Shown here: positions 9,146 to 22,327 of the stretch, piece after piece
Layout of the letters: every line of letters starts with the position of its first letter
Numbering within the stretch: the first letter of the stretch is position 1
The notes under the pieces: generated by a model
The model's database searches: none
Seen by the model: the letters and a program-made list of their open reading frames with translations, nothing else
Told to the model about the DNA's origin: nothing
Translations under genes and position numbers: made by a program
IMG/VR virus record: IMGVR_UViG_3300032006_000099
Span: 1 to 22,337 of that record
DNA: 22,337 bases
Reading direction: 5' to 3' (one strand)
Source: a virus

Positions 9146-9172
9146 CCCCTTAAATACCGATCGGAGGATAAA

Positions 9173-9382
9173 ATGGCTAAAGTTACAGTCATATCATACC
9201 ACAACGGTGGTATGCCTAGGGAAATGGAAGGTGGAACACCATCTGAGCTTGCTCAGGAGTTAGACCTTTCACTTCAAGGTGTTCAAATACATGTAGACAG
9301 TGGTGAGGCTAACCCCTCTCAGACACTAGCTGATGGACAATTTGTATCTTTTCAAAAGAGCAAAGTAGCATCAGGTAAGTAG
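9173..9382 (+). CDS. Ubiquitin-like / ThiS-MoaD-like beta-grasp protein
   Basis: A 69-aa small modifier candidate. The order fits a beta-grasp fold: strand-turn-strand (AKVTVISYHNGGMPREME, 2-19), helix (TPSELAQELDL, 22-32), strand (GVQIHVDS), and the hallmark C-terminal segment TLADGQFVSFQKSKVASGK, which matches the L-x-D-G-D-x-V-x-F near the end of ThiS/MoaD proteins. The chain ends Ser-Gly-Lys rather than Gly-Gly; removal of the last Lys would expose a C-terminal Gly for adenylation. GGAGG lies six bases before ATG. It is the first gene of a cassette with E2-like, JAB and E1-like genes downstream, which strongly supports the assignment. A perfect 8-bp hairpin lies within its first codons and a 9-bp stem follows the gene. 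Sequence similarity to ubiquitin itself is not expected at this length. Confidence 0.8.
   Translation: MAKVTVISYHNGGMPREMEGGTPSELAQELDLSLQGVQIHVDSGEANPSQTLADGQFVSFQKSKVASGK
9195..9214 (+). repeat. Hairpin inside the start of the Ubl gene
   Basis: CATACCAC (9195-9202) and GTGGTATG (9207-9214) form a perfect 8-bp stem with an AACG loop, beginning 22 bases after the A of the start codon. It may slow translation or protect the message, or may be coincidental in coding sequence. Confidence 0.4.
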
Positions 9383-9411
9383 ACCCCCGTCTGCATACAA
9401 AAGATGTAAAT

Positions 9412-9456
9412 CTTGCAAGGTAATGTGTCAACTAATACCAATAAGGGCCTTGCAAG
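9412..9456 (+). terminator. Stem-loop between Ubl and E2 genes, possible attenuator
   Basis: CTTGCAAGG (9412-9420) pairs perfectly with CCTTGCAAG (9448-9456) around a 27-base loop, followed by the weakly U-rich TATTCTTTAA. It lies in the 120-base gap after the Ubl gene, the longest gap within the cassette. Partial termination or RNA processing here would give more modifier than conjugating enzymes. The U-tract is too poor for a strong terminator. Confidence 0.45.
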
Positions 9457-9502
9457 TATTCTTTAACTAAACCTAATAAATTAAATAATATAAGGAGTTA
9501 TC

Positions 9503-11251
9503 ATGACTTACAAAATTGATAAAACCTTCCCAGATAAGTTAGGCGATATTATAGATATAAGCGGATTACCTTTTAATCATGAAGCCCCAAGCTTTAAAAA
9601 GAGATTAAAAAGAACATTTGAAAGAATCTTTAAAAAGAATGGAATTAGAAATTCTAAACTAGACAAAGATTATTGGAAGATACTATATGATATGATATCA
9701 AACCCTAATGAGACATTTGGATTAGTAGCTATAGATGGCTATGTAACAGATGTTATGGGAGATGATGATATAGCTTTGATATTTAATATGGGTATACCAA
9801 GACTCAGAGGAAGAAAAATATATACATTAGATAGAATATATGCTAGAATATCATGTAATAATCCAGATATTAAATTTTATAATTCTGGAATAGAAAATGA
9901 TGAAGTATATTTTGATTTTAAATATAAAGTTCCTGCTTGGCATCCACATATTACAAATGCTATGCCTTGCTTAGGCTCTTATGGAACAGAGCTAGGTAAA
10001 TGGAGATTAGAAGCTAATCCAATAATGTATTTAAGGACAATTCATATGTTTTTAAATACCTGGAATCGTAGATCACCATATTGGGATATAAATCATAATA
10101 CAATAGACTATAGCAGCGATAATAAGAAATATAAAGCATCTAAGCTTTTTAATGGTCTTCATTTACAGGGACAGGAAGCTAGTCATTATAATCGACAATT
10201 TATTGTAGATAATATTGATAAGATAGATAGTGGTTCTGTTGTAAATGATTCAAGTATATTAGCTCATATTCTCGGAAAATTGAAATATGTTAAAGATAGT
10301 CTCGGAGACACTATTAGAGAAAAGGTTGATAAAGACCAACTCAATGATATTCAACATATTCACCAATATTTACGAGATAGAAGAGAAAATAGACGATTAA
10401 GTAGAAATGGATTATTTTCAATAATGAAAGAAAGAGATACTAATATCTATGTACCATCTTTCTTTAAAGATAAGACATCTATATCTTCAATTGAAATAAA
10501 AAATGATAGTTTAATTAAAGATGAGGATTATTCTTTAGCATTATCAATATTACAAGCTCTAGAAGAAATAATGGAAGATATATACAAATACATAACACGT
10601 GGTAGTATGTATGAACTTGTATTTGAAGAGTCAGATTATGCAATAAGATTATATTGTCAATATTATGCTCCACTTCTTACTAAATTAAATAAGCATTGTG
10701 ATGAAATGACTAATTCAGAAAAATTCAATCAAAGAGTTACTCATGATTCGGGAGAAATTTCACAATTTGATCCAAAACTATATAAAGTAAAAAGAAAAAT
10801 GCTTACTTTAAGTAGAAATAGATGGAGAAGAATTATGAGAATGATGAAATCTTATTACGATAAAATGTTTTCAAAGGAATTTGTAAATGAAGCAATTGGA
10901 AATAGAATTTCTGAAGCTTTTAAATATACTATCAGTGAACCAACAAATAGGTGGGACGGAGTAGAGTATAGATATTTAATTGATAAAGGAAGATTCTGGT
11001 CTAGAATGTACATTGATAATGTAGATGATAATAAATTTCGAAAACTAGAAAAAATTCTTTCACCTAAATCACCTGAATCATTGAGTGATTTAATAACCTT
11101 GTATGAATCTATTAAGAAAAACCTCATTGAGCAAGAGTCTCAATATTTAATAGGTCAATACAATAACGTCATAAGGAGTCTAAAAGATTATGGCAACCAA
11201 ACTAATAATACCAAAGAAGATACACAACAAGTACACTTATCTTTTAAATAG
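9503..11251 (+). CDS. E2-like (UBC fold) conjugating enzyme with long C-terminal extension
   Basis: A 582-aa protein. Residues about 71-200 look like an E2 core: strands (FGLVAIDGYVTD, EVYFDFKYKVP), then WHPHI (146-150) in the place of the E2 'HPN' motif, then PCLG with Cys156, nine residues after His147, close to the spacing in eukaryotic E2s, and a following helix (MYLRTIHMFLNTWN) ending in SPYWD. Cys156 would carry the Ubl thioester; His149 replaces the usual Asn. An N-terminal ~70-residue basic helical region precedes it. The remaining ~380 residues are helical, charged and unlike anything I recognise; they may bring target specificity or E3-like function. Classical E2s are ~150 residues, so this is very large. 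AGGAG precedes the ATG; the end overlaps the JAB gene by 62 bases. The assignment rests on motif and gene context; the fold needs structural prediction. Confidence 0.7.
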   Translation: MTYKIDKTFPDKLGDIIDISGLPFNHEAPSFKKRLKRTFERIFKKNGIRNSKLDKDYWKILYDMISNPNETFGLVAIDGYVTDVMGDDDIALIFNMGIPRLRGRKIYTLDRIYARISCNNPDIKFYNSGIENDEVYFDFKYKVPAWHPHITNAMPCLGSYGTELGKWRLEANPIMYLRTIHMFLNTWNRRSPYWDINHNTIDYSSDNKKYKASKLFNGLHLQGQEASHYNRQFIVDNIDKIDSGSVVNDSSILAHILGKLKYVKDSLGDTIREKVDKDQLNDIQHIHQYLRDRRENRRLSRNGLFSIMKERDTNIYVPSFFKDKTSISSIEIKNDSLIKDEDYSLALSILQALEEIMEDIYKYITRGSMYELVFEESDYAIRLYCQYYAPLLTKLNKHCDEMTNSEKFNQRVTHDSGEISQFDPKLYKVKRKMLTLSRNRWRRIMRMMKSYYDKMFSKEFVNEAIGNRISEAFKYTISEPTNRWDGVEYRYLIDKGRFWSRMYIDNVDDNKFRKLEKILSPKSPESLSDLITLYESIKKNLIEQESQYLIGQYNNVIRSLKDYGNQTNNTKEDTQQVHLSFK

Positions 11252-12023
11252 ATTTAAGGACTTAGAGTGGTCTGGCCCTGCATGGTATAAGGTCAAAACA
11301 GATGAAGATGGTTTTCCTACAGAATGGAGAATCATTCATTTCCATCCATTAGATTTAGGCAGTCATGCTGCTACTGAATGGGAAGCTAAAGACTTAGCTA
11401 AAATTCTGAAGAAGACCTATGCTAATATGCCAAGCTTGAAGAAAGCTTATATGGGTTTAATCCATAGTCATAATACTATGGGAGCGTTCCTATCTGGAAC
11501 AGACACAAGCACAATCCAAGAGATGGCACCTGACGAAGGATTCTACGGCAGCTTGGTGGTCGCCAGTGCTGGCAAAGCCTTGCATGCCTTTGGATTTGGT
11601 TATAAAGATCAGTATAAATGCGCTCATTCAATAGAGGTAAAAGAAGAGAACATAGAAATTAATGTTCCTGGAATTAAACCAGAAGATGAATGGGTAACTA
11701 TAGCTGATAAGATTGAAAAGAATAAACCAACTCCTAAGAAGAATAGTCAGGTTACATTATGGAATGGTAGTAGGACACGGCATATCCCAAATGTTAATAG
11801 CATAACTGAAACGGATAAAAAGAGTGCTATACTAGATAAGCTAACCAAGGAAAAGAGAGCTCAGGCAGAAGCTATAATGATGAAAAACGATACTGCAGAA
11901 ATGAGTGATATAGCAGCTGAAGATGCTTTACAAAAACTTGGAATTAGTTTAATGGATGTATTAACTCTTATGGATGATGGATATAATTACGGATATGGAT
12001 ATGGAGGATATTATGGCTACTAA
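11190..12023 (+). CDS. JAB/JAMM metalloprotease (deconjugase or Ubl processor)
   Basis: A 277-aa protein with a complete JAMM zinc site: Glu26 (EWSG), H92-S93-H94, then exactly seven residues, Ser102, two residues, and Asp105 (IHSHNTMGAFLSGTD). This class cleaves isopeptide or peptide bonds after a Ubl C-terminal Gly; here it could trim the Ser-Gly-Lys end of the Ubl and remove it from targets. The catalytic domain covers about residues 1-150; the rest is a Lys-rich linker, a helical segment and an odd Tyr/Gly tail (YNYGYGYGGYYGY). The tail codons GGA-GGA double as the Shine-Dalgarno of the E1 gene. It starts inside the end of the E2 gene, with GGAG about 11 bases before ATG. The motif match is strong. 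Confidence 0.88.
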   Translation: MATKLIIPKKIHNKYTYLLNRFKDLEWSGPAWYKVKTDEDGFPTEWRIIHFHPLDLGSHAATEWEAKDLAKILKKTYANMPSLKKAYMGLIHSHNTMGAFLSGTDTSTIQEMAPDEGFYGSLVVASAGKALHAFGFGYKDQYKCAHSIEVKEENIEINVPGIKPEDEWVTIADKIEKNKPTPKKNSQVTLWNGSRTRHIPNVNSITETDKKSAILDKLTKEKRAQAEAIMMKNDTAEMSDIAAEDALQKLGISLMDVLTLMDDGYNYGYGYGGYYGY

Positions 12024-12678
12024 TAGATTCTTAAGAAATAAGGATTTGATTCCTCAGAGTAAACTAGACCATATCGGTCTGGTTGGATTAGGAGGTATCG
12101 GCTCACAGCTGGTACCTCTATTGTCCATTATGGGATGGAAAAAGATGACAGGATGGGATCATGATGTATTGGAAGAGCATAATTTAAGTACTACTATGTT
12201 CCCTCAAGGAGCATTAGGCAAATCAAAAGCTGAAGTAGCTGAAAATATTGCTAATCTATATTCTGTTAAGCCTGGAAATAATAAATTCTTTAAAGAATAT
12301 TATGATGAGGCTAGTCCTACATTACCAAAAATGATCACTTGTCTTGATAATATGGAAGGTAGACTTGTAGCATATAATAAATGGTTAGAACAAGGCAATA
12401 GGGAATTCTTTATTGATTTAAGGATGGGAGCTATGGCTATGGAAATCATTACCGCAACTAAGGATAATGATAACTATTTAGATACTTGGCTACCTTCTCA
12501 TGAGATAAGTGAAGAACCGTGTACAATGAAACATACAATATTTACAGCTTCTATAGTTGGAGGCTTTGGCGTAGACCAAGTCTTTAATGTAGTTGCAAAA
12601 AGACCGTATTATTCGTATATTTGGATTGGCTTAATGCCACTCGAAATGCGAACTGAAAATCTCATTATAACACACTAA
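12013..12678 (+). CDS. E1-like / ThiF-family activating enzyme
   Basis: A 221-aa Rossmann protein that would adenylate the Ubl C-terminus. Motifs: GLGGIGS nucleotide loop (25-31), WDHD acidic strand end (Asp49, Asp51), HNLSTTMF (56-63) in the place of the 'NLNRQ-x-x' segment, LGKSKAEV (69-76) with the conserved Lys, CLDNMEGR (110-117) with the conserved Asp, and EEPCTMKHTIFTASIVGG, whose Cys170 aligns with the catalytic Cys of ThiF. No CxxC zinc pairs are present. The usual Arg of NLNRQ is missing. I chose ATG 12013 over 11974 because GGAGG lies five bases before it; it then overlaps the JAB stop by 11 bases. It is shorter than bacterial ThiF/MoeB (about 245-250 residues). Function in a Ubl-E2 cascade is inferred from the cassette. 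Confidence 0.85.
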   Translation: MATNRFLRNKDLIPQSKLDHIGLVGLGGIGSQLVPLLSIMGWKKMTGWDHDVLEEHNLSTTMFPQGALGKSKAEVAENIANLYSVKPGNNKFFKEYYDEASPTLPKMITCLDNMEGRLVAYNKWLEQGNREFFIDLRMGAMAMEIITATKDNDNYLDTWLPSHEISEEPCTMKHTIFTASIVGGFGVDQVFNVVAKRPYYSYIWIGLMPLEMRTENLIITH

Positions 12679-12690
12679 ATAAGGATAGTT

Positions 12691-13551
12691 ATGGATATTA
12701 ATGTCAGAAAAGTATCCACTGACTGGACGACTTTACCTACTGGGTTGACTTGGTATTTTATCGGTCAACCCAAAACAGGTAAGACAACTCAAGCCAGTAA
12801 ATGGAGTCCCAATGGAGCCGAGGGATGTCTATTAATTGATACTGACTTAGGCTCTGATTTTGTTGAGGGAGCAAATACAGTTACTGTTACCTCATTAAAT
12901 ACTCCAACAAGACCCAAAATGATTGATAATAAGCAAGTTACAGAAAAAGGTAAGCCTGTTACAGAGGTAGTACCTAATGATGAGCGTGGTTATTATAATC
13001 GTACTGGAGATGTAGGAGAACCAATGGAAGTATATTCTATGGTAGAAGTGTACTATTGGTTAAAGGATAATTTGCAAAAATTACCTTATGATACTATTGT
13101 TATTGATACAATTGATCACATAAATAGATGGATTGAATTAGAAGTATGTGATGAAAGAGGTCAAGCAGCAATGGGCGAAGGTTCTTCTTGGGGTGCTGAC
13201 TGGGCACAAGCTAGAAAGAAGAATCTTGACATAGTAAAAAAGTTTCAAACATTGTGTAAATCATTAGGGAGAAATCTTGTTTTGATTTCACATGCTAAGA
13301 GTACCGTCATTACAGACGGGAAAAGCCAATTAGGGCCTGAACTACCCCGTGGGTTAGCTTATGCTCTAACGGCAAGTGCAGACGTGATAGGGTACGCTAT
13401 GGCTAGTAAAGAAGATGGTAAGTTCTATCTTTCTTTTAAAGCATATGATGAAAGGACTGTAGGCAGTAGGCTTAAGCCTTTAGCTCAGAAAGTCCTTGAA
13501 TTTGATTACGATAGCGTAATGAATGAAATACTAAAATACAAAGAAGAATAG
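12691..13551 (+). CDS. Sak4-like RecA-fold ATPase (recombination)
   Basis: A 286-aa single-domain ATPase: Walker A GQPKTGKT (25-32), a following acidic strand end LLIDTDLGSD, Walker B DTIVIDTIDHIN near the middle, and a sensor-like NLVLISHAKS. This arrangement matches the phage Sak4/AAA_24 type, RecA-like proteins that promote single-strand annealing or exchange, usually with a phage SSB. The next gene is a candidate SSB. AAGGATAG lies upstream. An insertion with TRPKMIDNKQVTEKGKP between Walker A and B is variable in this family. It sits 12 bases after the E1-like gene and is thus likely cotranscribed with the Ubl cassette. It could instead be a DnaB-loader-like ATPase, but the motif pattern favours Sak4. 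Confidence 0.75.
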   Translation: MDINVRKVSTDWTTLPTGLTWYFIGQPKTGKTTQASKWSPNGAEGCLLIDTDLGSDFVEGANTVTVTSLNTPTRPKMIDNKQVTEKGKPVTEVVPNDERGYYNRTGDVGEPMEVYSMVEVYYWLKDNLQKLPYDTIVIDTIDHINRWIELEVCDERGQAAMGEGSSWGADWAQARKKNLDIVKKFQTLCKSLGRNLVLISHAKSTVITDGKSQLGPELPRGLAYALTASADVIGYAMASKEDGKFYLSFKAYDERTVGSRLKPLAQKVLEFDYDSVMNEILKYKEE

Positions 13552-13560
13552 GAGATGCCT

Positions 13561-14196
13561 ATGCCGTTCAGAGGTTCTTATGAACAAAGCGAAAACAACT
13601 CTGGTGGTGCAAGCTTCCTTGGTTTCCAAGAGGTTGCATTAACTGATGTTGTAGATAGATCAGCTGATTATCCAAATATGGATATGTTTCTAGAAATAAG
13701 TTTTAGAAACGCAAATTCACAATATCCCTGGAAATATAGCCTATTAGGCTCATTTGACAGAGAAGATGATGATACCATATCTGGTAGTAGTAGCTTATTG
13801 AAAAGAATCTTGTATTTTACAGATGCTATTGGTTGGACTGGTGGAGTTAATCCTCACGGTCACTGGGTTGATGAAGATGATAAGCCTGTTGAAGATATTG
13901 CAGGTTTATTAAATGTCAACTTTACTGTGGCTAATTACGGAATGACTAGCTCAGACGCAGATCATAAGTATTATATATTTACTTATAAGAAGTGGAATGA
14001 GAAAGCTGGTAAAGCATACACAACTGTATGTCCTAAAATTGTAAAGAATACTGACTTTGGTCGTAAAGACCTTGAAAGTTATGTTCAGTACATGAAAGCT
14101 AATAAATTCATTGTAGAACACGATGACACTTCAGCACCTGTTTCTAACGGGGACATGACTAGTACCACTACTGGTAGTGCCCGTAACACGTTCTAA
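13561..14196 (+). CDS. Candidate single-stranded DNA-binding protein
   Basis: A 211-aa protein, beta-rich in the first two thirds (SFLGFQEVALTDVV, DMFLEISFRNANSQYPWKYSLL, VNFTVANYGM, KYYIFTYKKW), with a Ser/Thr/Gly-rich disordered tail. It lies between the Sak4-like ATPase and the primase-helicase, where phages typically keep an SSB or DUF669-type partner. I see no diagnostic motif and the tail lacks the acidic tip of bacterial SSB. The start at 13561 is preferred over 13555 because GGAG (13551-13554) is at proper distance only from the former. Function inferred from context. Confidence 0.5.
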   Translation: MPFRGSYEQSENNSGGASFLGFQEVALTDVVDRSADYPNMDMFLEISFRNANSQYPWKYSLLGSFDREDDDTISGSSSLLKRILYFTDAIGWTGGVNPHGHWVDEDDKPVEDIAGLLNVNFTVANYGMTSSDADHKYYIFTYKKWNEKAGKAYTTVCPKIVKNTDFGRKDLESYVQYMKANKFIVEHDDTSAPVSNGDMTSTTTGSARNTF

Positions 14197-16050
14197 GTGG
14201 AACTTTATCACGAAGTAGCGATAGGGGGCCCTCAGAACAGAGGGCTCCTTATTCCTCAAGAACAAATCATTGATGTTATATTAGAACATGGTGATAAATA
14301 TGCTGTATATAAGAGTCTATATCTGTATGATGAAGAAGGAAGACAATATCATAAGCTAAGAAAAACATTTAAAGATTTTCTAGGTAAGAGATATATAAAA
14401 AATATATTAATTGATATTGATAGAGGCGATAATACAGATGAGTATACACTAAACAAAACAAAAAGTGTATTATTTGAACTAGAAGAATTAGGAGTTCAAA
14501 GACGCTCATATAATATCTATTTTAGTGGAACTGGATATCATATAATAATAAGTGGAGAAGTATTTAATTTCCCTGAGGGGACATCAGACTTACCTTTTAT
14601 TGTTAAAGAAACTATGAATAATTTATTCAGTGATATAGATTTAGCAGTATATAATAGAACATCAATATATAGATGTGCAAATACCTTAAATCCAAAGTCT
14701 GGATTATATAAAATTCCATTAACACATAATCAAGTACAAGAATCATCAGCGGAAGAAATAATATCTGAAGCACATAAACAAATTATACTTGAAACTGATC
14801 CTATTTGGGGAGATGGAGAACTTGAAAGTAAAGTACTTACTGATGTCCCACAAATAAGAGTAATGGAATCTAATGTAGAACCACGCAATATTGTACCCTG
14901 CGTCCAAAAGATGTATAAACTTGGCCCAGAAGAAGGCTCAAGAAATAATACTATGATGCGAATAGCGTCTCATTTCTTTAGGCACGGTATACCAAGTGAA
15001 GCTGCAAAAGCTTCACTATTGCACTGGAATAACGGACAATTAAGAGATGACATTATCATCAAAAAGGTAGAAGACACCTATCGTGGTGGGTACAAATATG
15101 GCTGTAAAGATGTCTTAATGGCTAAGTATTGCCAAACACATTGTATTCATTACAAAAGAAAAGATTATTTGATTGATGTAAAGAACAGCGAAGAGCTGCA
15201 ATCAGAACTAGCAGAAAGACTTGAAACTGACTTCTCTGGTAGGACAATTGATTTAGCTGAGTCTCTAGGTGTACACGATAAAGATGCAACAGTATATCCA
15301 GGAGAACTAGTTACTATATTTGGGTCAACAGGTGCAAACAAAACAGCACTCGCTCAAAATATAGTATTAGGTTACAATGCTGAGCATGATCAAATAATAA
15401 AAGAAAAACAAATACCAACATTATTCTTATCCTTAGAACTATCAGGATTTGTGATGCACAGGAGAAATTTACAAATTGTATCAGGAGCAGATAAAAATAC
15501 TGTAATGAGCAAATATAAAAATCTCTATACTTATCACAAAGAAGAACTAAGCCACATAATAATGCAATCAGTAAGCCCCACAATACCACAAATACAAGAC
15601 AAGATAAAACAACTACAACCAAAATGTGTTGTAATTGATTATATAGACCTCGTAGATGTACCTTTTAATAAAAGAGGAGAGTACGAAAAGCTTAATTATA
15701 TAAGCCACTCTCTATCAAATGTAGCTGTAAATGAAGATATCATTATCATACAGATTTCTCAAGTCTCTAGAGACTACTCAAGGAATCAAATAATGGACTT
15801 ATATGCAGCTAAAGGGAGTGGAGCAATTGAAAATGCTTCAAGAAAAGTTATTGGCATAACAGGTTCTTCAGATGAAACTGAAAAGAAAGTCTCTTTATTC
15901 AAGAACAGCGATGGTGATCTCTTCGATGTTAAGTTAGAATGGACACCTTCATTTAGATTAAAGAGAAAGAAACCTGAAGTTATGCATAGTAAAGTAATGA
16001 ATAAGAAATTCACTATATTGGAGGATGAATGGCAACCACAAAAGAAATAG
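14197..16050 (+). CDS. Primase-helicase fusion (AEP-type primase plus DnaB-like helicase)
   Basis: A 617-aa bifunctional replication protein. N-terminal archaeo-eukaryotic-primase-like domain (about 1-180): catalytic pair ILIDIDRGD (Asp73, Asp75), YFSGTGYH (109-115) with the nucleotide-binding His, and IYRCANTLNPKSG (158-169). The middle (about 230-320) is helical with Cys235, Cys303, Cys312 and Cys316, a possible zinc or PriCT-like linker. C-terminal RecA-fold helicase: Walker A GSTGANKT (376-383), LFLSLELSG (409-417), Walker B CVVIDYIDLV (477-486), and IIQISQVSRD (517-526), the DnaB motif region. It would synthesise primers and unwind the fork, like T7 gp4 but with a different primase fold. 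The GTG start directly follows the previous stop with little Shine-Dalgarno, so translation is probably coupled. The 3' end overlaps the next gene by 22 bases. Confidence 0.82.
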   Translation: MELYHEVAIGGPQNRGLLIPQEQIIDVILEHGDKYAVYKSLYLYDEEGRQYHKLRKTFKDFLGKRYIKNILIDIDRGDNTDEYTLNKTKSVLFELEELGVQRRSYNIYFSGTGYHIIISGEVFNFPEGTSDLPFIVKETMNNLFSDIDLAVYNRTSIYRCANTLNPKSGLYKIPLTHNQVQESSAEEIISEAHKQIILETDPIWGDGELESKVLTDVPQIRVMESNVEPRNIVPCVQKMYKLGPEEGSRNNTMMRIASHFFRHGIPSEAAKASLLHWNNGQLRDDIIIKKVEDTYRGGYKYGCKDVLMAKYCQTHCIHYKRKDYLIDVKNSEELQSELAERLETDFSGRTIDLAESLGVHDKDATVYPGELVTIFGSTGANKTALAQNIVLGYNAEHDQIIKEKQIPTLFLSLELSGFVMHRRNLQIVSGADKNTVMSKYKNLYTYHKEELSHIIMQSVSPTIPQIQDKIKQLQPKCVVIDYIDLVDVPFNKRGEYEKLNYISHSLSNVAVNEDIIIIQISQVSRDYSRNQIMDLYAAKGSGAIENASRKVIGITGSSDETEKKVSLFKNSDGDLFDVKLEWTPSFRLKRKKPEVMHSKVMNKKFTILEDEWQPQKK

Positions 16051-16583
16051 TTGGTGAGTTGATTGATGTAAATCAACAAATGGAGCTACTAGAAAAACGG
16101 CCTGACATTGACATGGAAGAGCACAAGCTTCTCGAAGAGAAGCGAATGACACTACACAAACAAGTTAGGACGAAAATCCAAAATGTCGACTACTTTATGA
16201 TGGAACTTAACAAGAAAGAACACTTGATTGACGCTGAGGTTGAAGCGTTAAAAGATGAGATTGACAGACTACGGTCAAGGAGAAAAGGCTTAGAAAGAAC
16301 GAAAGATTTCTTCAATAAGAATCTTCTTCCAGCTGTAATTATGGAAATTGGGAATGATGATGGAGTATATGAAACTGATACCGCAAGGTATAAGCTTTAT
16401 GAAACATTTGGCCCAGTTGATGTCGACCCTCATGTTATATCAGATGACTTTAAGAAAGTTGAAATAGTTGAGAAATTGGATAAGGTAAAAGCTAGAAAAG
16501 CTGCAATATCAGCATTTAATGCTGGTCAAGAAATGCCACCTGGCATTGATATAGATAAAGTTAAACGTGTAAAGAGATCATAA
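16029..16583 (+). CDS. Gp157-like phage protein
   Basis: A 184-aa protein: a long coiled coil in residues 1-100 (EEHKLLEEKRMTLHKQV, EALKDEIDRLRSRRKGLER) followed by a small beta domain (TARYKLYETFGPVDVDPHVI) and a C-terminal IVEKLDKVKARKAAISAFNAGQ. This helix-then-beta order and the ending 'D-K-x-x-x-x-x-A-I-x-x-x-x-x-G' are those of the siphovirus Gp157 family, found in replication/recombination operons and proposed to relate to DNA-binding or phage-resistance functions. GGAGG lies before its ATG inside the end of the helicase gene. Followed by a structured leader. Confidence 0.7.
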   Translation: MATTKEIVGELIDVNQQMELLEKRPDIDMEEHKLLEEKRMTLHKQVRTKIQNVDYFMMELNKKEHLIDAEVEALKDEIDRLRSRRKGLERTKDFFNKNLLPAVIMEIGNDDGVYETDTARYKLYETFGPVDVDPHVISDDFKKVEIVEKLDKVKARKAAISAFNAGQEMPPGIDIDKVKRVKRS

Positions 16584-18049: not shown

Positions 18050-18131
18050 CTTAGTGTTCCTTTTCCACTAAGGCAGTTTATCCCTCAAAGGAGGAGAGTG
18101 GTTTTTTATCTTTTTTGACTACTCTCCTCTA
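18050..18131. terminator. Convergent hairpins between early and late blocks
   Basis: Two stems lie between the converging operons. CTTAGTG (18050-18056) pairs with CACTAAG (18066-18072). GAGGAGAGT (18091-18099) pairs with ACTCTCCTC (18121-18129) around a loop rich in T. The second stem overlaps the stop of the leftward gene. T-runs lie inside the loop rather than after the stem, so the terminator would be atypical, but the location and symmetry suggest termination in both directions. Confidence 0.5.
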
Positions 18132-19538
18132 TCCTTTATAAGTTCTATCTTTACTTTTATGATAATCTATAAAAGCTCCACTAGCTAAGACAAGTAAAGC
18201 AGCGACACTTAAACCTCCAAGACCCATAGCAGTATGTCTCATAAGCCAAAAAGGACTAATCATTTTTCTTTGTAATATTTTTTGCTTTAGATATCCACCA
18301 TGCTTTTTGAGTAGCTCATCTATCTTAACAGCGTCCTGTTTATTAATTCCTGGAAACTTATCACTTGTAACTAATTTTTGTAAATTTTCTTTTTTTGGAT
18401 ATTGTTTAATAATTTGTTTTACCGCATTTTTTTTGTCTTTAACAGGTAGATCATCTTGAATATCTGTTACTATTTCAGGGATACCAATTTCTTTAGGAGG
18501 TGCTATATTTAAAACATTCTTTCCACCAAGTTTCATTCCAAATAAATCACGTTTATCATTAGCATAAAATTTTACTTTTGTAGGATTCTTTTCATCCCAT
18601 TCAACAATTCCTTGATAGCCTCCCCAATCATAATTAGGTTTTATACCTGGAGAAACTTTAAAAAATATTCTTTCTTCACCTTTTTTACCAAAAGATTTCC
18701 ATGTTCTTAGATTATTATTTTTAGCAAAAGCAACTTTAACTTTATTAGCAGTTAAATTATCTAACCCGTGTTCGTTAAGCCTAACAAATGTATTATAAAC
18801 AGGTCTATCAAACTGTATACCCCTCATTACATCTCCAACCTTAGCTCCTTGCCTATGCTCTAAAAATTTAATTTTGTTTAAATCTTTCATACCAGGTTGA
18901 TTTTCTGTCATGTATTTAGCTATCTCTTCTGTACCTCCCAAGCTAGCTAAAGCTTTTCTTTTACTAACTGGTTCTACCCATTGTTTAGCATACCTAGCAA
19001 CATCATCTATTGCTGGAGGATTTTTTCTATGTAAATATCTATTTGAATAATCATTTATAAGTTTATAATGTTGTTGTCTTTGATTATTAGCAAGGGTTCT
19101 TCTAGCTTTCCTAAAGGTTTGCTCAGCTTCTTTATCTTTATATCTATATTTACCTTCAGAATCTAACTCTATCTGCCTACCCATTTCTTCTTGTAGGTTT
19201 TCAATATTATCTTGCAACCTTAACAATTCATTATAACCCCTAGTAGACATACCAGTCCTTTTATAAGCATAGGATGTTCTCGGATCAACAACATCTCTCA
19301 TAATTGGCAAAGCATTAGCCGCAACTTCCCTACCAGTTGCTACAATTTGATTACCTCTTCCACCACCATAAAATCCTCTTAAAAAATTATACGGATATTG
19401 AGCTAATCTTGACCTATTATCTCCAGTCATCATCATAACACCAGCGCTGCCAGCAGCTGTTAATGCTAGTTCTTTATGATATTCGTCGAGTAAAGATCGC
19501 ATATCAATTTGTTTATCTTCTGGAACATAAAAAGACAT
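18129..19538 (-). CDS. Probable virion protein, 469 aa, C-terminal membrane segment
   Basis: The N-terminal half is helical and charged (coiled coil about 105-165), the middle is mixed alpha/beta with basic patches, and the C-terminus has one hydrophobic segment (about 437-457, MGLGGLSVAALLVLASGAFI) followed by a short basic tail. There is a second weaker hydrophobic patch near residue 30 (ALTAAGSAGVMMMTG). Not recognised by sequence. It is the last gene of a leftward block and is coupled to the 929-aa gene by a TAATG overlap. Large membrane-active proteins in such pairs are often ejection (internal virion) proteins in podoviruses; this role is inferred from context only. Confidence 0.5.
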   Translation of the reverse strand: MSFYVPEDKQIDMRSLLDEYHKELALTAAGSAGVMMMTGDNRSRLAQYPYNFLRGFYGGGRGNQIVATGREVAANALPIMRDVVDPRTSYAYKRTGMSTRGYNELLRLQDNIENLQEEMGRQIELDSEGKYRYKDKEAEQTFRKARRTLANNQRQQHYKLINDYSNRYLHRKNPPAIDDVARYAKQWVEPVSKRKALASLGGTEEIAKYMTENQPGMKDLNKIKFLEHRQGAKVGDVMRGIQFDRPVYNTFVRLNEHGLDNLTANKVKVAFAKNNNLRTWKSFGKKGEERIFFKVSPGIKPNYDWGGYQGIVEWDEKNPTKVKFYANDKRDLFGMKLGGKNVLNIAPPKEIGIPEIVTDIQDDLPVKDKKNAVKQIIKQYPKKENLQKLVTSDKFPGINKQDAVKIDELLKKHGGYLKQKILQRKMISPFWLMRHTAMGLGGLSVAALLVLASGAFIDYHKSKDRTYKG

Positions 19539-22327
19539 TATATAATCCTAGGTCTTAAGAAGTCTGAATCATCTTGATATTTTTTAATTTGCCTAGGTAA
19601 CTGCTGATAAGGTAATCCAGTAGCTTTTTCTATTGCTCTACTTGGGTTTTCTATTAAACCACCCTTTCCACCTTCAAATACATTACCAAATATATCGTAT
19701 CCCATTCTTCCAAATGGAATCATACTCCAAGCATAATAACCACCAAGCCTAGCCCAATCATCATTTATCATAGCTCTAACTGTAGCTGGAATCAATCTTA
19801 ACGCAGGAGGTGTTATTACCTGAAGAGGAGCAAGTGCTGTAGGATAAGTACCAAAGAACGCCCTACTCCTCTCTTTCTCATTGCCAAATGCCCAGTCAGC
19901 CATATCCTGTAACCATCCATAAGGTTGTGGCAGAGCATTTTCAAACAAAGAGTACATAAAGACATTGCCTAACCCAAACATGAGCAAGTCCATAGTAGCC
20001 ATCCGTTTAAATTTTTCAAATTCAGGAGTACCTTCTTTCCATCCCCTAAGGTGAGCCTCCCTAATAACATCATTTCTAAATCTTACTGAGTTCCATGCCC
20101 ATAATTGGAATCTAGTCATAGCTTTACCCATAGCAGACCTTGCAAAAGCTGGTCTAAAAGGAGCTGAATATAAGAATTGTGTAGATTTTACACCTTCCAT
20201 GCCAAGCTTGATAAGTATTGGGTCGTCAAATTGCTTTATGGCGCCTTCAAAGTTACGTCTACCTTGTAAATAATGAGCCATAAAAGCATCTCTACGAAGA
20301 GTTCTTTCAGGTCTACGCATAAACCAAGCAGCTTTATTAAACACAGAGTCTATAATTCCATGTTTATTTGCTATATTTTTTAAATTCTTATCAGATAAAT
20401 TAGGGTCTTTTTTAATAGCAGAAGTTGCTTCAGATAAAAAGTCTTTAAACCTAGCGCTTTTAAACTTTGGATTTAGACCAGCCTCGTAAATAATAAAATC
20501 TTCTATTACACCAAGACTTTGTACCCATTTTTCAACATCAGCCATATTTTTCCATTCAGGATTAACATTCGTCCTTAAGAAGTTTATATCTCTAGCATTT
20601 TTAAAATTACCAAATCCAGTAGATATAAGAGTATGAACACTACCACCATAAAGGTTAGCAGCAGCACTTTTAGGGTGAGCTAGTAATGTTGCAAGCTGAT
20701 ACTTAGCTTCAAGATTTCCCCATCTTGCGAGATTGCCAAAATCTATACCTCTTAATTCTTCTGGAACGCCAGCATCTTTCTTTTTACCTATACCAAGCTT
20801 ACTACGTATTTGATTAACTCTATTCTTAACATTGGTATCATTCCACCAAGCATACGGAGTTCCTTTTATCTTCATATTAGGATTATTTAAAATTCTTTCT
20901 GGCAATTGCTGAGGATAACCTAATGCGTCTTGAGCATATAGATTAAAAAAGTCTACCCACTCATTAGTAAGTTTAGAATTTCCATGTTTCTTGAAATGCT
21001 CGGATTGAAATTTATGTATATCTGATCTAACTTTTATTTGTGCAGCATGTTGATACATATTATCAATAACGCTTTTCATATACTGAGAATAAACCTCAGG
21101 CTCTACACTCCATCCAGGAATATGTGCATCACGTTTATGTTGAGCTCCTACCATTCTATTCTCAGCAAAACCTTTTATTCTTTCGGAAGCTTTTCCGTTC
21201 TTTGCAGCAATATCCTTTAAAACCTCAAAAGATAAGTTATACTTATCATTTAATTCACCAGTTGGTATCCAGTCTCCAGTAATCTGTCTATAATGATAAA
21301 TTAACTTAGCCATTTCTTTATCACGTTCTTTTTCTGACAATCGAGTTTCTTTATTTAAAATTTCTATAGCATCTCTTAAACCTTTTGCAGCCTTTTTAGC
21401 ATCACCAGAAATATGAGGCCAATAGCCTTCAGCCCCTAAATCTCCAGTTCTTCCTATCAAAAGATTATCTTGTATTTGCTTTTTAACATCTTCCCTAGCC
21501 TTTGGAAAATAAGATATCATTTGACTTTTAGCAATCTCTCTAAGTCCATCTATACCTTCAGTTAGGTCTACACGCTTACCTTCCAATATGGATTTATCAA
21601 ACTTCTTTAGAAAATTTTCAACAATATAATAATCTGCTGAATACCCTTTCTGCTTAGCTTTCATAGGTTCATATAATCTATCCCACTCACTTATACCAAA
21701 TTCATCTCTTCCACCAGTCATCCAACCATGAACTATTTTGTTCCATTTTGTGATAACTTCATTAATTTTATTAACTATTTCACGACCACTCATTTTAACG
21801 ACTTTACCACCACCTAGTGTAACATCAAACTGTTGTTTCTGGAGCTCAGCCCAATTGTATTCTTTTTGTATATTATTCCACTGATCTATATACTCTTTAG
21901 ATTTCAAATTATATGCCGCTGAGCCTTCTTTATCCATAATTCTTTTAGGCATGGTATGGTATTCACGTTCTCTTACAGCTATTCTAAAAAGTTTATCTCC
22001 ACCTGCTACACCCTCAAGATAAGGTCTTATATCATCATCAAATTTTCTTTTATTTTCTTCATATAGCTGAGTAGCTTGTTGATTCATAGTATGCACAGCA
22101 CTTTGCATTTTAGTCATCATGTTCTCAGGCTGCTTTATTGCACCAGTAGCCCATTCACCAGCTTTATTTTTATAAGGAGCCCTAGCATCAAACAGCTCTA
22201 AATCATATCTCATTAAATCTTGGCCTATAGCTTTTGGAAACATCAACCAATGCCAGCCAGTAATTTTAGCTGCCTTTTCTCTAACTGGTCTCATAACTCT
22301 CTGCCACCAAGTACCATCTCTTGTCAT
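19538..22327 (-). CDS. Large probable internal virion/ejection protein, at least 929 aa
   Basis: A very long, mainly helical protein starting MTRDGTWWQRVMRPVREKA. The C-terminal third has hydrophobic and aromatic stretches (TMDLLMFGLGNVFMYSLFENAL near 790-815, then FFGTYPTALAPLQVITPP), suggesting membrane contact. No enzymatic motif is evident. Size, position in the late block and pairing with a second membrane-active protein fit podovirus internal virion proteins, which form the DNA-ejection channel. I do not recognise the family with certainty. The ATG at 22327 has no Shine-Dalgarno in the ten bases that remain upstream, so the true start may lie outside the window and the protein may be longer. 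Confidence 0.5.
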   Translation of the reverse strand: MTRDGTWWQRVMRPVREKAAKITGWHWLMFPKAIGQDLMRYDLELFDARAPYKNKAGEWATGAIKQPENMMTKMQSAVHTMNQQATQLYEENKRKFDDDIRPYLEGVAGGDKLFRIAVREREYHTMPKRIMDKEGSAAYNLKSKEYIDQWNNIQKEYNWAELQKQQFDVTLGGGKVVKMSGREIVNKINEVITKWNKIVHGWMTGGRDEFGISEWDRLYEPMKAKQKGYSADYYIVENFLKKFDKSILEGKRVDLTEGIDGLREIAKSQMISYFPKAREDVKKQIQDNLLIGRTGDLGAEGYWPHISGDAKKAAKGLRDAIEILNKETRLSEKERDKEMAKLIYHYRQITGDWIPTGELNDKYNLSFEVLKDIAAKNGKASERIKGFAENRMVGAQHKRDAHIPGWSVEPEVYSQYMKSVIDNMYQHAAQIKVRSDIHKFQSEHFKKHGNSKLTNEWVDFFNLYAQDALGYPQQLPERILNNPNMKIKGTPYAWWNDTNVKNRVNQIRSKLGIGKKKDAGVPEELRGIDFGNLARWGNLEAKYQLATLLAHPKSAAANLYGGSVHTLISTGFGNFKNARDINFLRTNVNPEWKNMADVEKWVQSLGVIEDFIIYEAGLNPKFKSARFKDFLSEATSAIKKDPNLSDKNLKNIANKHGIIDSVFNKAAWFMRRPERTLRRDAFMAHYLQGRRNFEGAIKQFDDPILIKLGMEGVKSTQFLYSAPFRPAFARSAMGKAMTRFQLWAWNSVRFRNDVIREAHLRGWKEGTPEFEKFKRMATMDLLMFGLGNVFMYSLFENALPQPYGWLQDMADWAFGNEKERSRAFFGTYPTALAPLQVITPPALRLIPATVRAMINDDWARLGGYYAWSMIPFGRMGYDIFGNVFEGGKGGLIENPSRAIEKATGLPYQQLPRQIKKYQDDSDFLRPRII

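Follow-up and report, generated by a model that had tools for sequence, protein, structure and literature searches.

Ubiquitin-like conjugation in bacteria is known chiefly as an anti-phage weapon. Several described operon types carry such machinery, including Bil, in which BilA possesses two ubiquitin-like (Ubl) domains (PMC11354881), and Bub, bacterial operons linked to Cap regulators (PMC13373217), and further operons combining E1, E2, JAB and Ub components have been predicted, among them some with small stand-alone Ubls that carry a C-terminal glycine (Iyer et al. 2006, PMC1779556). The phages considered here appear to own the whole cycle, placed among replication genes and in two distant lineages. 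The reading that we favour, and hold to be reasonably probable, is a self-contained phage cycle of Ubl conjugation and deconjugation, acting most likely on proteins of the phage or the host where replication takes place.

Gene order of the cassette and its spread among phages

The window, meaning the whole 22.3 kb stretch of DNA that was analysed, is an IMG/VR fragment from a marine virus of bacteria. ORF calls place four co-directional neighbours on the + strand, encoding a Ubl, an E2-like protein, a JAB protease and an E1 (Table 1), at the places listed in a first-pass annotation, with the E1 lying within an ORF of 11974-12678. The E1 most likely starts at the ATG at 12013, which follows a GGAGG, rather than at the opening of the ORF, and with this corrected start both of the overlaps described in that annotation were confirmed, E2/JAB at 62 nt and JAB/E1 at 11 nt. 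As annotated, the cassette is complete, linked and situated within a phage replication operon. The terminase gene of the window is on the opposite strand. Two big minus-strand proteins (18129-22327; 469 and 929 aa) have no PHROG match at 0.01.

Table 1. Positions of the cassette, its motifs and its neighbours in the window
Feature	Position	Strand	Basis
Shine-Dalgarno-like GGAGG of the Ubl	9163..9167	+	sequence
Ubl, 69 aa, single beta-grasp modifier, C-terminus KVASG followed by K	9173..9382	+	
E2-like protein, 582 aa, long helical C-terminal part	9503..11251	+	
E2 active-site motif HPHITNAMPCLG: H147, H149, C156 (codon 9968-9970), G158	9941..9976	+	
Stretch shared by the E2 and JAB reading frames, 62 nt	11190..11251	+	
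JAB/JAMM metalloprotease, 277 aa	11190..12023	+	
JAMM motif HSHNTMGAFLSGTD; catalytic Glu E26 lies upstream	11463..11504	+	
GGAGG, likely E1 ribosome site, within JAB C-terminal codons	12003..12007	+	sequence
E1-like enzyme, ThiF fold, 221 aa from likely start; ORF opens 11974	12013..12678	+	
E1 Cys170 codon, in EEPCTMKHT, kept in 88/88	12520..12522	+	
Sak4-like AAA ATPase, directly 3' of E1 (context)	12691..13551	+	
213-aa protein, unknown function (context)	13555..14196	+	
Primase-helicase (context)	14197..16050	+	
Gam-like protein (context)	16029..16583	+	

A search with the E1 recovered the order Ubl-E2-JAB-E1-Sak4-like-g6-helicase in 31 of 31 IMG/VR loci, followed to the contig ends, and because this order recurs in relatives together with near-invariant catalytic residues, the cassette is not a chance arrangement. 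Linkage, on which the first-pass annotation had let its reading depend, held up in related phages, with order and linkage recurring in the loci examined and no unlinked genes found. Wider scans covered 79 E1 loci and the best 80 of 271 JAB loci; in the latter, the E1 lies downstream in 80 of 80 distinct JAB ORFs, and the complete ORF upstream of JAB is E2-like wherever present, nearly always with HxH..C.

Two phage worlds carry the cassette, marine phages and Bacteroidota phages. Among annotated phage records (n = 50,697), E1 relatives occur in 74 and JAB relatives in 52, and the same four-gene order is found in annotated Bacteroidota phages, including the Bacteroides phages DAC17 and crAss001 and Flavobacterium phage Fpv3, and also in Kolpuevirus, Kahnovirus (cr85_1), cr112_1, Dulem virus 41 and bajarodcaudo virus 1. 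Carriers in culture comprise crAss001 in Bacteroides intestinalis, DAC15/DAC17 in B. thetaiotaomicron and Fpv phages in Flavobacterium psychrophilum. In crAss001, gp79 is the Ubl plus a C-terminal part, gp78 the E2, gp77 a 'metalloprotease domain' protein and gp76, the E1, a 'thiamine biosynthesis protein', all sitting between primase and uracil-DNA glycosylase with a Sak4-like gene close by. With its E1 filed under that name, a system open to testing has apparently gone unnoticed in this important phage of the gut, and the same genes in the same order in so well-studied a phage make laboratory tests possible. In crAss001, genes for replication and recombination belong to the middle class, transcribed from 10-30 min (PMC8375218), a timing that gp79-gp76 may share, judging from their place.

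Upstream of the Sak4-like gene (67 loci), the E1 was present in 65/66, JAB in 52/54, E2 in 32/34 and Ubl in 30/31, where the denominators count loci with enough sequence and many near copies render the loci non-independent; among the phages grouped with the window, the cassette is near-core. In locus L253 the cassette is missing, and its usual place before the Sak4-like gene is taken by a MoxR-like AAA ATPase and a 744-aa protein (L253:6524-9801). Another locus scored as lacking genes in these counts, L256, proved to be a profile miss, its JAB and E2 both being present and divergent, with HPF in the E2. By a first-Met heuristic, 68 of 70 related loci have an E2/JAB overlap of 17-125 nt; several crAss-like phages, at 62-68 nt, come close to the 62 nt of the window, and this recurrence fits common descent of the block. 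At L171:3140-3848, ~700 nt of extra sequence separates JAB and E1, an arrangement from which other loci differ. After the E1 in crAss-like phages there is a conserved gene without a family match (crAss001 gp75; L035:7738-8550).

Sequence and structural features of the four proteins

AlphaFold models the window Ubl as a beta-grasp whose tail is flexible (pLDDT 86.8), and Foldseek placed SUMO and archaeal ubiquitin at the top, with TtuB having the highest TM-score (0.74) among the matches listed, in agreement with the earlier call of a beta-grasp modifier. The protein combines this fold with a C-terminal glycine, and its tail (..KVASGK) has Ser-Gly plus one residue and no free GG. Ser-Gly occupies the same position in 38 of 38 aligned Ubls, long Ubls having been cut at Ser-Gly for the alignment and ORFs having been picked by position or profile, with the motif not used. 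Beyond Ser-Gly the tail comprises zero residues (L144, L153), one (K in the window; C, S, Q or R in others), two, ~10 (L057, L143) or eighteen (L154), and in Bacteroidota phages it extends to well over 100 (crAss001, KKIKSG followed by AMSR). The crAss-like Ubl at L035:3328-4002 continues after KSG into a C-terminal part of unknown function. With Ser-Gly fixed and the tail variable, the Ubl resembles a protease-matured precursor, and the JAMM protease probably matures it ahead of E1 activation, a sharp prediction arising from this sequence pattern.

The window JAB has HSHNTMGAFLSGTD (H92, H94, S102, D105) as well as the JAMM glutamate E26, and the perfect HxHx7Sx2D read in it earlier is there. 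The complete E...HxH...SxxD set is present in 128 of 129 JABs, the exception being L092, where the exon is split by an intron. The intron (L092:6088-6300) belongs to group I (RF00028, Rfam E 3.9e-17) and interrupts the HSH active-site codons; introns in conserved phage genes usually sit at such codons. A seeming loss of JAMM in L073-L080 was traced to a two-residue insertion within the motif. The Pfam Prok-JAB match of the window JAB (E 0.0035) is under the cut-off, and the JAB profile matches archaeal Rpn11 and AMSH-LP weakly. A Gly/Tyr tail, GYGYGGYYGY (window 11970-12023), is common among relatives; its codons contain the likely ribosome site of the E1, so conservation of the tail may partly serve that GGAGG.

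The window E1 matches Pfam ThiF at E 9.5e-11, passing the cut-off, and carries the GxGGxG, Asp, Lys and DN/DxxxxR features of a ThiF-type adenylating domain together with the catalytic cysteine of ubiquitin-like E1s. All 88 of the phage E1s compared share G25, G27, G28, D49, D51, N57, K72, D112, R117, C170, K173 and T175, and the annotated Cys170 is correct when counted from the start at 12013. The NLxRQ arginine is absent from all 88, with NLST or NLSG instead, a point against the conjugation cycle proposed below. The eukaryotic E1 site is C-T-x-R/K, which the EEPCTMKHT of the phage E1 resembles, and the best PDB matches to the E1 profile are the eukaryotic UBA6, UBA5 and UBA3. A dN/dS of 0.05-0.10 for the E1 and silent-only changes in the Ubl, a protein 100% identical in the window and in L002 despite 9 silent differences, point to purifying selection; the E2 evolves fast (dN/dS ~0.45), and the E2s of those two loci are only 50% identical.

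The E2 is the weakest link among the four parts. The HPHI (residues 147-150) and Cys156 previously noted in the 582-aa protein are both present, providing the HPN-like motif and catalytic Cys expected of a UBC/E2. H149 and C156 are invariant (44/44), H147 and G158 occur in at least 90% of the 44, and the HPH spacing is 10 in 32 of them. HPHITNAMPCLG mirrors the yeast Ubc4 motif, HPNINANGNICLD, with Asn changed to His and one residue fewer, and the L171 E2 has the exact Ubc4 spacing. In the model of the whole chain (pLDDT 88.3, pTM 0.83), a helix (55-65), strands (73-128), HPH (147-149), Cys156 and helices at 159-169 and 173-184 precede a long helical region past residue 184, and the predicted order of elements around Cys156 is UBC-like. 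Foldseek with this whole-chain model returned no UBC match, with helical-bundle noise from the PDB and one viral protein at E 6.9e-6, and the sequence had no convincing match in Pfam, NCBIfam, PHROGs, PADLOC or the PDB. A profile of the E2 core compared with four yeast E2 sequences brought the catalytic motifs into register at E 0.031, a score reached by 3 of 200 column shuffles and thus only suggestive; comparison with PRTRC_B yielded no useful match. As a whole-chain UBC match is absent, the assignment rests on motif, element order and gene context.

Proposed cycle and alternative readings

A working conjugation cycle is likely, judging from its parts. The JAMM protease would cut the Ubl precursor past the invariant Ser-Gly, and the E1 would adenylate the new C-terminal glycine and then form a thioester on Cys170. 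The Ubl would pass to Cys156 of the E2-like protein and on to targets, no E3-like protein having been seen, and the same JAMM protease may be able to take the Ubl off again. Targets at the replication site are proposed because the cassette lies inside the replication/recombination operon of two distant phage groups, in one of which it is near-core; the Sak4-like, 213-aa or helicase proteins would be candidates, a guess that their location suggests. SUMO and ubiquitin modify eukaryotic PCNA, to which a similar regulation in phages may be likened: the cassette could represent a near-core phage-specific family, marine and gut crAss-like, in which tagging of replication/recombination proteins regulates phage DNA synthesis, a tentative proposal to which we give somewhat less than an even chance.

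The same cycle might instead serve counter-defence or the exclusion of competitors, tagging host defence proteins or the structural proteins of superinfecting phages. That the fastest-changing part is the E2, the would-be chooser of targets, fits an arms race, as does the halved identity of E2s whose Ubls are the same. Accessory anti-defence genes are usually variable in place, however, and a near-core cassette that keeps its place in the replication block in both groups of phages makes this use unlikely, even with the precedent for tagging of phage structures in Bil, which modifies phage tails according to work cited in a passage of PMC12135933.

A role in sulfur transfer, with the Ubl donating a thiocarboxylate as ThiS does and the E1 activating it in the manner of ThiF, towards a cofactor or a modified base, would agree with the ThiF family match of the E1, with its name of 'thiamine biosynthesis protein' in phage records and with the Ubl profile, which matches ThiS (E 1.4e-5) and, weakly, SAMP2. 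This role is very improbable given the linked E2-like protein with its invariant Cys, on which the annotation's preference for conjugation over sulfur transfer is supported, and given an E1 that is nearest to conjugating E1s and has an invariant catalytic Cys of its own; no rhodanese or sulfurtransferase was seen adjoining the cassette. We regard as similarly far-fetched an assembly or maturation module, in which JAB frees the Ubl from a C-terminal partner and the E1 and E2 do something else. The large C-terminal part joined to the Ubl of Bacteroidota phages and the proposed precedent of the lambda TAPI/TAPK pair (PMC1779556) would suit it, but in both groups the genes are among replication rather than tail genes, and described tail-assembly sets are without E1 or E2 (PMC1779556).

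Comparison with known systems

In the E1 tree, where cellular sampling is thin and branches are long, the marine phages form one clade (100/100) and the Bacteroidota phages another (98/91), and the two join each other (91/87, short of the star mark) apart from PRTRC, Cap2-like and other cellular ThiF proteins. A pattern-based scan of ~85,000 species genomes for a cellular cassette returned only short ThiF-like matches, the one strong E1 match among 296 Bacteroidota genomes was a JAB-E1 fusion in a different kind of operon, and no relatives of the crAss001 E1 were found on plasmids. No published phage cassette of this kind was found, subscription papers aside, and an earlier description is possible; the crAss-like genome paper and a Crassvirales review make no mention of ubiquitin or ThiF.

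Phage-encoded Ubl and JAB protease are also shared with the tail-assembly proteins I and K of lambda and T1, which occur without E1 or E2 and among tail genes, whereas the cassette is among replication genes. The operon types of Iyer et al. 2006 contain the same four component kinds (PMC1779556), but they are bacterial, mostly have JAB or E2 fused to E1, and do not include a phage replication cassette (PMC1779556). CBASS type II Cap2/Cap3 combines E1 and E2 activities with a JAB protease, and Cap2 matches the E1 profile weakly; it has a fused E2-E1 Cap2 and a CD-NTase, whereas the cassette has separate E2 and E1 and possesses a Ubl. As the first-pass annotation had stated, neither a CBASS nucleotidyltransferase nor a PRTRC ParB-like partner was found among the window proteins scanned. 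Bub operons share bacterial Ubl conjugation, and among the matches to the E1 profile is a structure of BubCD (E 3.4e-5); the cassette differs in belonging to a phage replication operon and in having JAB and E1 as separate genes.

PRTRC plasmids and ICEs share an E2-like PRTRC_B beside a ThiF-type E1, related E1 profiles and a CxG at the E2 cysteine, but differ in their ParB-like partner and are separated by the E1 tree; the PRTRC_ThiF match reached 25.7 bits against a cut-off of 144.75, and the B and C families had no match. Bil BilABCD, like the cassette, unites in a single operon the genes for a Ubl, an E2, a protease of the JAB family and an E1, and its protease trims the Ubl C-terminus, as proposed here. 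The 69-aa single-domain Ubl differs from the two-domain BilA, Bil is a bacterial defence operon and the cassette part of a phage replication operon, and of the PADLOC Bil profiles BilD alone matched, weakly and to the E1, at E 0.0032. In its workings the cassette resembles Bil, Bub and PRTRC, and by the tests tried it lies outside Bil and PRTRC.
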